Assembly (NCBI GenBank): GCA_029210015.1
Contig: JARGOE010000018.1
Span: forward strand, 1-39,709
DNA length: 39,709 bases
Source: Vicingaceae bacterium
Lineage (GTDB): Bacteria; Bacteroidota; Bacteroidia; Flavobacteriales_E; Vicingaceae
Direction of reading: 5' to 3'
Shown: piece by piece, positions 17,944-22,217 of the stretch
How the letters are laid out: every line of letters begins with the position of its first letter
Numbering within the stretch: the first letter of the stretch is position 1
Notes under the pieces: model-generated
The model's database searches: none
Told to the model about the DNA's origin: nothing
Seen by the model: the letters and a program-made list of their open reading frames with translations, nothing else
Position numbers and translations under genes: made by a program

Positions 17944-20073
17944 TTAATTATAAGTCTCAATTAATATATCTAATATCTCTTGAGCTGCTTTACTTATCTT
18001 AGTTCCTGGTCCAAAAACACCTACAGCACCTGATTCAAAAAGGTAATCATAATCTTGTTGAGGGATAACACCACCTACAATTACCATAATATCTGGTCTA
18101 TTTAATCTTTTTAATTCTTCAATTACTTGAGGCACTAATGTTTTATGGCCTGCAGCTAACGAACTTACTCCTAAAATATGCACATCATTTTCTACAGCTT
18201 GTTTAGCTGCCTCAGCAGGTGTTTGAAATAAAGGGCCTATGTCCACATCAAATCCTAAATCAGCAAAAGAGGTTGAGATAATCTTTGCTCCTCTATCATG
18301 TCCATCTTGGCCCATTTTAGCAACCATAATTCTAGGGCGCCTTCCTTCTAATTCAGAAAATTTATCTGCAAGAGCTTTTGCTTTTATAAAATCTTTGTCT
18401 TCCATAGCTTCTGAACTGTAAATTCCACTTATAGATCGTATTTGTGCTTGGTATCTCCCAAATACATTTTCTAAAGCATCAGAAATTTCTCCTAAAGTAG
18501 CCCTTTCTCTTGCTGCAACAACTGCAGCTTCCAAAAGGTTCCCATTTTTGCTACGAGCAATTTCGGTAATATTATTTAAAGCAGCAACCACTTTATCGTT
18601 ATTCCGTTTTTCTTTAATCTCTTTTAAACGTTCAATTTGACCTAAGCGAACTTTCTGGTTGTCAACCTCTAAAATTTCCATAGGTTCCTCATCCTCTACC
18701 AAATATTCATTTACTCCTACAATAATTTCTTTACCTGCATCTATCTTCGCTTGTTTGCGTGCTGCAGCTTCTTCTATTCTTAATTTAGGAATTCCTTTTT
18801 CAATAGCTTTCGCCATTCCACCTAATTCTTCTACCTCTTCAATTAATTTCCATGCACGTTCAGCTATTTCATGTGTTAAGGTTTCTACATAATATGAGCC
18901 TCCCCAAGGGTCAACAGTTTTGCATATTTCAGTTTCTTCTTGTAAGTAAATTTGGGTGTTACGTGCAATACGTGCTGAAAAATCTGTTGGTAAAGCTATT
19001 GCTTCATCTAATGCATTTGTATGTAGGGACTGAGTTCCGCCCATTGCAGCAGCCATAGCTTCAATACAAGTTCGGGCAACATTATTGTATGGGTCTTGTT
19101 CAGTTAAACTCCAACCACTTGTTTGAGAGTGAGTTCTTAAAGCTAGAGATTTTGGGTTTTTAGGATTAAACTGTTTCACAATTTTTGCCCATAACATTCT
19201 TGCAGCACGCATTTTTGCAATTTCCATAAAATGGTTCATGCCAATACCCCAAAAGAAAGAAAGACGTGGAGCAAAACTATCTATATCCATTCCTGAAGCT
19301 ATACCAGTTCTTAAATATTCTAGACCATCAGCTAGGGTATATGCTAATTCAATATCGTTAGTACCTCCAGCTTCTTGTATATGGTAGCCAGAAATACTAA
19401 TAGAATTAAATTTAGGCATGTGCTGAGAAGTATATTTGAAAATATCTGCAATAATTTTCATTGAAGGTTGTGGAGGGTAGATGTAAGTATTTCTTACCAT
19501 AAACTCTTTTAAAATATCGTTTTGTATAGTTCCAGCAAGAAGCTCAGGTTTAACACCTTGTTCTTCTGCAGCTACAATATAAAATGCTAAAATTGGAATG
19601 ACTGCTCCATTCATTGTCATAGATACCGACATTTTATCTAATGGAATTTGGTCGAATAGTATTTTCATATCTTCAACCGAATCAATAGCCACTCCTGCTT
19701 TTCCAACATCACCAACTACACGTTCATGGTCAGAATCATATCCTCTATGCGTTGCTAAATCAAATGCAACAGACAATCCTTTTTGCCCAGCAGCTAAATT
19801 CCTTCTATAAAAAGCATTAGATTCTTCTGCAGTACTAAAACCAGCATATTGTCTTATTGTCCATGGTCGCATTACATACATGGTTGAGTAAGGGCCACGT
19901 AGATTGGGAGAAATTCCAGCTGCAAAGTCTAAATGATCAAGGTCTTTAATGTCAGCTTTTGTATAATTTGATTTAACCGAAATTTGTTCAGCTGTTAACC
20001 ATGTATTGCTATTGGTAATAGTACTTTGATCTTTTGCTTTATCGTATGTTAATTTTGAGAAATCAGGTTTCAT
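17944..20073 (-). CDS. mutB: Methylmalonyl-CoA mutase large (catalytic) subunit
   Basis: This adenosylcobalamin enzyme interconverts methylmalonyl-CoA and succinyl-CoA, linking propionate, odd-chain fatty acid and branched amino acid carbon to the TCA cycle. The 709 residues carry the substrate-binding TIM barrel ([44 protein letters not shown]) and a C-terminal cobalamin domain from about residue 577 with the DxHxxG motif (D590, H592, G595); H592 would be the lower cobalt ligand. Length and all motifs look complete. It starts three bases after the second small paralogue and ends the mut gene set. It pairs with MutA (20862-22217). Confidence 0.96.
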
Positions 20074-20076
20074 AAA

Positions 20077-20478
20077 TTAATTTTTTTCATTAAGCCAGTT
20101 GATAGCATCAGTTTTATTTGTAAATAATTTTGTAGGTATTTGGGGTTTAGTAAGATGCATAAACATGTTAGCTAAAAATGAAGATGTGCCAGATGTAATA
20201 ATTACAGCATATTTTTTAAAAAAGATAGGGGAGTTTTCTTGAGCAAAAACTCTTAGCTCAGAATCAAATTTTTGTAATCTTCGGCTATCTACTAAAAAAT
20301 TGTATTTTTCATTCTGGGTCCATTCTTTAAAAATTTCAAAATCTATCTTCATAGATTCAAGAGTTTGAATAGTCTCTCCCATTTTAGGTTCGAGTGTAAT
20401 AATTCCATCTTTTCTTAAATTAAGAAGAGATTTTTTTGAGGTGTCACTCTTTATTATTTCATCTGGGTTGTTAAGCAT
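20077..20478 (-). CDS. Small protein of unknown function, DUF7793/SpoIIAA-like, paralogue 2
   Basis: The 133-residue soluble protein has no signal peptide. It matches the preceding gene in outline: MLNN start, IIKS, a GIITLEP strand, a central helical region, and the end PTKLFTNKTDAINWLNEKN. This pattern resembles STAS/SEC14 or SpoIIAA-like DUF7793 proteins of Bacteroidota, but the link is by pattern only. It lies between mutA and mutB, overlaps the upstream paralogue by the eight bases ATGCTTAA, and ends three bases before mutB, so it must be made with the mutase. No catalytic residues are evident. A protein-protein or chaperone-like role is conceivable but unproven. Confidence 0.72.
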   Translation of the reverse strand: MLNNPDEIIKSDTSKKSLLNLRKDGIITLEPKMGETIQTLESMKIDFEIFKEWTQNEKYNFLVDSRRLQKFDSELRVFAQENSPIFFKKYAVIITSGTSSFLANMFMHLTKPQIPTKLFTNKTDAINWLNEKN

Positions 20479-20869
20479 TTTGTTTTAACCATTCAAAGGC
20501 CTCTTCCTCAGTTTTAAACATTTTAACAGGAAAAGGAGGTTTCCATAAAGTAAGCATGCTATGTGTCATAAATCTAGTAACAGCAGATTTTTCAGTCATT
20601 GCAAATGCTCTAGCAAATTTTGGCATATGTTCCATAATGTATGTTTTTGCATCGCTATCTATACTCTTTAAATTAACATTGTGAGAGAAGTATGGTACAG
20701 TTTTACCATCAGCTAAATCTAGTAAAATTGGTAACATTTTTTTTAAGTGAGGAACAGTAAACTTATCAACTTGTTTAGAAGGATAATAAGTAATTATATT
20801 ATCACTTCGTAATTCAATAGTCCCATAGTCGAAAGGGACTGATTTTATGATATGATCATTATTAAGCAT
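20471..20869 (-). CDS. Small protein of unknown function, DUF7793/SpoIIAA-like, paralogue 1
   Basis: The 132-residue soluble protein shares its start (MLNN), the IIKS and IITYYP segments, overall length and the C-terminal PVKMFKTEEEAFEWLKQNA with the next gene; the middles have diverged. The C-terminal strand-helix signature (FxxxxxAxxWL) recalls STAS/SEC14-like DUF7793 proteins. Its ATG overlaps the mutA stop by ATGCTTAA, and its own stop overlaps the next gene by the same eight bases. That shared junction suggests tandem gene duplication within the operon. Function unknown. Confidence 0.72.
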   Translation of the reverse strand: MLNNDHIIKSVPFDYGTIELRSDNIITYYPSKQVDKFTVPHLKKMLPILLDLADGKTVPYFSHNVNLKSIDSDAKTYIMEHMPKFARAFAMTEKSAVTRFMTHSMLTLWKPPFPVKMFKTEEEAFEWLKQNA

Positions 20870-22217
20870 TAGCTAATGCTTTTTGATTAATAATTTCTTG
20901 AGCTAAATTGATTGGGGTTAATGGATCTATAAAAGTGTTGTTTTCTTTTGTTGGAATTATAGCTTTTGGAGTAGTTTCCATTTTATTTGGATGTTTATTT
21001 ACACCTAATAATGTTTTAGAATTATTTGAATAATCTGCTAATCTTTTAGCATGTGAATTTTTTATACTTGATTGAATACTGCTATTTTCAATATTGATTA
21101 AAAAACCACCACTAGCTTCAATTTTCTTAAATAAATCTAAAGCCCCAATTACTAGCTTATCTGTTAATTCTTCAATATAATAAGCTCCTTTTGCTGCTTC
21201 GGTTACTTTATCTAAATAAGCTTCTTCTTTTAATAAAATCTGTATGTTTCTAGCAACTCTATTAGTAAAATCAGAAGGTTTTTCATACGCAGAATTAAAA
21301 GGAGTGATGCTCAAACTATTACACCCACCAATAATTGCAGACATTGCTTCTGTTGTAGTTCTTAAAATATTAGTTTGGGCATCAGGGGCAGTTATATTGT
21401 AACTTGTAGTTTGAGAATGTATGTATGGAGGCATTTCACAATCGTATTCTTTTGAAACTAATTTCCATAGTATTTTAAAGGCTCTAATTTTAGCTATTTC
21501 TACAAAGTAGTTTGAACTAACCCCTAAATTGAATTTTAGTTTTCCCAGCGAAGTATCAATGCTTAAACCTTCATCAGTTGCTTTATTAATGTATGCTAAA
21601 GCTTGATTTAAAGAATATGCTAATTCTTGAGTAGCAGTTGCTCCTGAATTGGTGTAATTAAATCCATTTACAGAAAAAGTATGTAATGGTTTTAGACTAA
21701 ATGATTTGTTTTTATTTCCAGATGTTAAATACTCACCAAAATAGTCATAGGAGATTGTGTAATTTAATTCTCTCGGATTGATGCTATTGGATTGAATATA
21801 AGAATCAAAATAGTTTTGAATATTTATAGGGTTAGGGGAATAAAAATGAAGATGAATAATGTTAATCATAATTCCATCTAGCAAGAGATTCATTTCTTGT
21901 TGAGATTTTATTTCGCCATTAAACTGAATGCTGTTAGCACCTCCTTTTAAAGCATGTATAGCTAGTCTATTAGCTTCTTTAATATTGTCTATGGAAATTT
22001 GTTCTTGAATTTCCCATTGAGTTTTTTCCTTTTCTAATGAGTATGAGTTAGATAAATTATTTGCTAAATTTTCGGAATTGTATATAGGTTGAATATCAAA
22101 TCCATCCTCTGTTTTTGAAATTAAATTTTCATTAAAATCTTTCCCTTTTAAATCGGAAGTAATTTTTTCTATCCACTGCTGATGTTTTACTCCATCAAAC
22201 TCATCAAATAAAGTCAT
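20862..22217 (-). CDS. mutA: Methylmalonyl-CoA mutase small subunit
   Basis: MutA is the non-catalytic partner of MutB. The 451-residue product has the mutase N-terminal segment (EFDGVKHQQWIEKIT) and a barrel parallel to MutB: IHSQTTSYNITAPDAQ stands for the HSQTSG region and RNIQILLKEEAYLDKV for its equivalent. It stops after NKHPN without the C-terminal cobalamin-like domain that longer MutA proteins keep in degenerate form. It follows the FtsB/DivIC-like gene by about 105 bases and overlaps the first small paralogue by eight bases. Start is the ATG at 22217. Confidence 0.9.
   Translation of the reverse strand: MTLFDEFDGVKHQQWIEKITSDLKGKDFNENLISKTEDGFDIQPIYNSENLANNLSNSYSLEKEKTQWEIQEQISIDNIKEANRLAIHALKGGANSIQFNGEIKSQQEMNLLLDGIMINIIHLHFYSPNPINIQNYFDSYIQSNSINPRELNYTISYDYFGEYLTSGNKNKSFSLKPLHTFSVNGFNYTNSGATATQELAYSLNQALAYINKATDEGLSIDTSLGKLKFNLGVSSNYFVEIAKIRAFKILWKLVSKEYDCEMPPYIHSQTTSYNITAPDAQTNILRTTTEAMSAIIGGCNSLSITPFNSAYEKPSDFTNRVARNIQILLKEEAYLDKVTEAAKGAYYIEELTDKLVIGALDLFKKIEASGGFLINIENSSIQSSIKNSHAKRLADYSNNSKTLLGVNKHPNKMETTPKAIIPTKENNTFIDPLTPINLAQEIINQKALANA

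Follow-up and report, generated by a model that had tools for sequence, protein, structure and literature searches.

The window analysed here, a stretch of 39,709 nucleotides from a Vicingaceae bacterium, carries on its minus strand the genes for the small and the large subunit of methylmalonyl-CoA mutase (mutA and mutB) and, between them, two small genes, which we refer to as D1 and D2 (Table 1). The distances between one stop and the next start are -8 bases for mutA/D1 and D1/D2 and +3 for D2/mutB, where the start lies 3 bases past the D2 stop. All of these are inside the range of -8 to +6 that permits termination-reinitiation (PMC10666635). The mutA product matches positions 3-457 of the 620 positions of TIGR00642 with a score below the cut-off, and a B12-like domain at the C-terminus is missing from this MutA as well as from those of loci L147-L155. 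In most members of the genus MutA is a further 50-90 residues shorter (20862-22217, loci L147-L155). A connection between the loss of the MutA C-terminus and the gain of D genes was rejected, as no clear correlation was seen and short MutA proteins occur with and without D.

Table 1 Features of the mut operon in the window. Columns give the feature, its position, the strand and the profile match or a remark.
Feature	Position	Strand	Match or remark
mutA, methylmalonyl-CoA mutase small subunit, 451 aa	20862..22217	minus	PF01642 6e-86
mutA/D1 stop/start overlap, 8 bases, ATGCTTAA	20862..20869	minus	A at 20870 is the ninth letter
D1, DUF7793 protein, 132 aa, predicted SpoIIAA/STAS-like fold	20471..20869	minus	PF25056 3.6e-17
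D1/D2 stop/start overlap, 8 bases, ATGCTTAA	20471..20478	minus	A at 20479 is the ninth letter
D2, DUF7793 protein, 133 aa, predicted SpoIIAA/STAS-like fold	20077..20478	minus	PF25056 1.8e-19
mutB, methylmalonyl-CoA mutase large subunit with B12 domain	17944..20073	minus	PF01642 8e-237, PF02310 6.5e-21

A sequence-only reading of this locus had pointed out that the two junctions are identical, and this is correct: both 20862-20870 and 20471-20479 read AATGCTTAA on the minus strand, the TAA stop and the next ATG overlap by the same eight bases, and the ninth letter is A in both. The MLNN starts, the IIKS motif and the FxxxxxAxxWL ends of D1 and D2 are likewise present as claimed. In an 8-base overlap of this kind, six letters are fixed by ATG and TAA, and three of the nine are free (two inside the overlap and the flanking base). 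That AATGCTTAA might be a rare string was ruled out, with 3 copies in the window against 1.84 expected. As a background we collected ATG-started overlaps between long open reading frames from 1.18 Mb (49%) of the same assembly; these 116 overlaps comprised 47 of 1 base, 30 of 4 bases, 17 of 8 bases and 22 of all other lengths. A distance of -8 is also the third commonest gene distance over 49 phyla (Huber et al. 2023, PMC10666635). Pairwise comparison of the fifteen other 8-base overlaps gave agreement in all nine letters in 4/105 pairs (~4%) and in the eight letters of the overlap in 8/105, while AATGCTTAA itself was not found at any further overlap in the sampled 1.18 Mb. Since six letters are forced, 8-base overlaps are common and about 4% of pairs match, the identical letters are a weak sign of copying. 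Given two 8-base overlaps, the agreement exceeds expectation mildly, at the level of a few per cent and as judged after the fact, and is largely ordinary. The two genes part beyond the nine letters: the Asn-Asn codons are AAT AAT versus AAC AAC, the Ser codon of IIKS is TCA versus AGT, and 25/51 bases just downstream of the junctions are identical. Identical junctions between neighbouring genes at an 8-base overlap should thus be read with caution as evidence of copying.

D1 and D2 share 28% identity over 131 columns. Both score above the gathering cut-off of 26 bits for PF25056 (DUF7793; D1 62.9 and D2 70.3 bits), and for PF11964 (SpoIIAA-like, cut-off 25) D2 reaches 25.7 and D1 22.9 bits. 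Structure models, computed with the two window proteins as a two-row alignment, have a pLDDT of 72 (D1) and 83 (D2). Both models find their closest solved structures in 4xs5 (Z 10.5 for D1 and 10.6 for D2) and 2q3l (Z 10.3 and 10.2), and 4xs5 superposes on the models with an rmsd of 2.4-2.5 over about 110 residues. D1 and D2 are paralogous members of a single family and, as modelled, share a SpoIIAA/STAS-like fold; differing folds, which had been named as a possible objection to their common origin, are not what the models give.

In partner-switching anti-anti-sigma factors, a phospho-acceptor Ser/Thr is conserved where helix 2 begins. The STAS phosphosite of the mut-linked D proteins would be expected at the start of their second helix, where 8/15 members have Ser/Thr and the rest A, F, Y or N, and no kinase or phosphatase gene adjoins the D genes in the mut operon. 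The source assembly contains at least nine DUF7793 genes. Three of them, other than D1 and D2, lie close together (L164 2038-2809, 3705-4091; G000 C45), and the first two of these share an 8-base overlap (2426-2433) with other letters, ATGAATAG. A literature search found no paper on DUF7793 by that name, and the sole match for methylmalonyl-CoA mutase and a STAS domain in one paper concerns Streptomyces antibiotic clusters.

The nearest relative of D1 is the single D gene in the mut operon of G059, a genome of another genus, and that of D2 is the first of two D genes in the congener G011, with 59% identity in each case. The order in G011 is D2 then D1, the reverse of the order in the window. 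In the tree, D2 grouped with the D2-type gene of G011 (100/98) and further out with both D genes of G019, whereas D1 grouped with the gene of G059 (92/95) and then with the D1-type genes of G005 and G011. Constraining D1 and D2 to be sisters lowered lnL by 89.6 (p-AU 1e-81). This was rejected again (lnL 81.2 lower, p 3e-5) when the first 14 residues were cut from the mut-linked rows, by which the junction region was kept out of the test. A clade of D1, D2 and their two orthologues was rejected as well (p 0.005); a single clade of all 15 mut-linked D genes was not (p 0.23). The mutB tree had weak resolution inside the genus. Because sisterhood is rejected with or without the first 14 residues, the split between D1 and D2 predates the divergence of these genomes, unless both orthologues came by transfer. 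Compared to other members, the D1-type gene of G011 (L152, reverse strand) is missing some 16 residues around the third strand and may be decaying or mis-assembled.

The junctions of the orthologues resemble those in the window in form. The mutA/D1 letters AATGCTTAA correspond to CATGCCTAA in G059, and the mutA/D2 junction of G011 reads TTTGCTTAA, with an 8-base overlap and a TTG start; each of the two differs from AATGCTTAA in 2/9 letters. Overlaps of 8 bases between mutA and D occur in G059 (ATGCCTAA), G061 (ATGTTTGA) and G011 (TTGCTTAA). The remaining mutA/D junctions overlap by 1 base (G005, G013) or 11 bases (G012) or do not overlap (G060, G009, G019), and D/D junctions elsewhere overlap by 4 bases (G005 and G011) or 1 base (G019). 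As several mutA/D junctions have 8 bases with differing letters, the 8-base form appears to be inherited while its letters drift. The sequence-only reading had regarded separate deep clades with unrelated junctions as contrary evidence; the clades are indeed separate, but the junctions are not unrelated, the orthologues having 8-base overlaps too.

How the two junctions came to agree can be explained in several ways. Recent tandem duplication of a gene together with its junction would account for the adjacent position, the common start and end motifs and the nine identical letters, but D1 and D2 share 28% identity against 59% between each of them and an orthologue in another genome, and their sisterhood is rejected. 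We therefore regard it as very improbable, the trees ruling it out unless both orthologues came by transfer. A much older event, in which the ancestor of these mut operons copied a D gene with its 8-base junction, after which the proteins diverged to 28% and the overlaps were kept, both of them letter for letter in this genome, seems unlikely to us. The mut-linked D genes being mutually related in the tree, with one clade of 15 tolerated, is in its favour, as is the small distance of the orthologous junctions from AATGCTTAA, two of nine letters in each case; the data also fit AATGCTTAA as the ancestral sequence of both junctions, followed by two substitutions in each orthologue. It requires, however, that junctions stayed unchanged amid diverged coding DNA, and it is at odds with the reversed gene order in G011 with its 4-base D/D overlap and with the D/D overlaps of 4 and 1 bases in G005 and G019.

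Local recombination or gene conversion in the source lineage, overwriting the initial 15-30 bases of one D gene with those of its neighbour, seems quite improbable. It would explain why the first ten residues are 9/10 alike between D1 and D2 (after one gap) and about 6/10 alike between each of them and its orthologue, the opposite of what the remainder of the protein shows. The Asn-Asn and Ser codons nevertheless differ in their synonymous letters, a 3-base indel falls within the tract, and most mut-linked D proteins carry IIK(S/E), which is thus ancestral. Of the original proposal, the paralogy of the two genes and their linkage to mutA by overlaps have stood, while there is no support for explaining the match simply by a tandem duplication in which the junction travelled with the gene.

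We read the mutA-mutB stretch in 37/46 genomes of the family, including cases at contig edges, and found D genes between mutA and mutB in 11/37. Two D genes are present in the source genome (G000; D1, D2), G005, G011 and G019, and one in G059, G060, G061, G012, G009, G013 and G007, where the contig ends upstream. D is absent between mutA and mutB in G002, G010, G017 and deeper branches. A profile search of 61 mutA-mutB loci from other groups detected no D gene, the same profile being positive on control loci, and none of these 61 loci has a MutA-MutB fusion. Outside the family, the stretches retrieved for the two strong class-level matches G251 and G301 contain neither a mutA nor a mutB ORF. 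In six genomes of the family (G008, G004, G006, G016, G049, G045; loci L153, L154, L156, L170, L172, L173), which belong to two genera, a single reading frame of about 1046-1087 aa encodes MutA fused to MutB, and no DUF7793 gene intervenes. In G048 (L171 2330-3191), the close relatives of which are fused, mutA and mutB lie 860 bases apart with no long ORF on the same strand. The C-terminus of MutA in G010 (L151), NEEDAISWLKSIDIK, resembles the C-termini of the mut-linked D proteins, with a profile E of 3.7e-4, the best of eleven MutA tails, and a pairwise score reached by 0/500 shuffles; a D gene was probably deleted here, leaving its final codons fused to mutA as a scar. Because G002, G010 and G017 have no mut-linked D and six genomes have MutA-MutB fusions, D is dispensable; its repeated loss shows that the mutase does not require it in every species. 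A kept stoichiometry with MutA and MutB, as once supposed, is doubtful in view of relatives with 0, 1 or 2 copies, either order and several losses.

Taken together, we think it probable that D1 and D2 are old DUF7793 paralogues that are coupled by reinitiation, inherited their 8-base overlaps gene by gene and likely serve as accessory partners of the mutase. A ribosome ending mutA would restart 8 bases back on D1, and a ribosome ending D1 would do the same on D2, as judged from the geometry, by which D1 and D2 would be made in step with MutA. That the orthologues of D1 and D2 have the same overlap with other letters suggests that the two overlaps were inherited separately. The nine-letter identity would then consist of six forced letters and three whose agreement is due either to chance or to a common ancestral junction, and would be no mark of a recent copy. 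D1 and D2 would likely be small accessory partners of the MutA/MutB heterodimer in assembly or regulation, with which several relatives would dispense. The operon arrangement is more informative than the junction match. More tentatively, it may be speculated that DUF7793 is a lineage-specific extra component of the mutase, encoded between the two subunits and translated in concert with these, and that some relatives later fused MutA and MutB instead. If D acts on the mutase, this would be the first function for the uncharacterised DUF7793; the B12 enzyme concerned is tractable, and nature offers variants with none, one or two D copies or a subunit fusion for comparison.

Overlapping genes are enriched among subunits of complexes, and -8 overlapping pairs with termination-reinitiation have been described (PMC10666635). 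The junctions reported here have the same overlap length and lie within the reinitiation range; they differ in that two consecutive overlaps carry the same free letters and in that their coupling is a prediction. Proteins of the SpoIIAA/STAS fold (4xs5 and the Shewanella SpoIIAA-like protein 2q3l, PMC2954212) resemble the D1 and D2 models with Z >10, but the identity is 10-18%. With other DUF7793 (PF25056) members, D1 and D2 have length and C-terminal motif in common, whereas they fall in a mut-operon group that is distinct from most of the genome's other DUF7793 genes.
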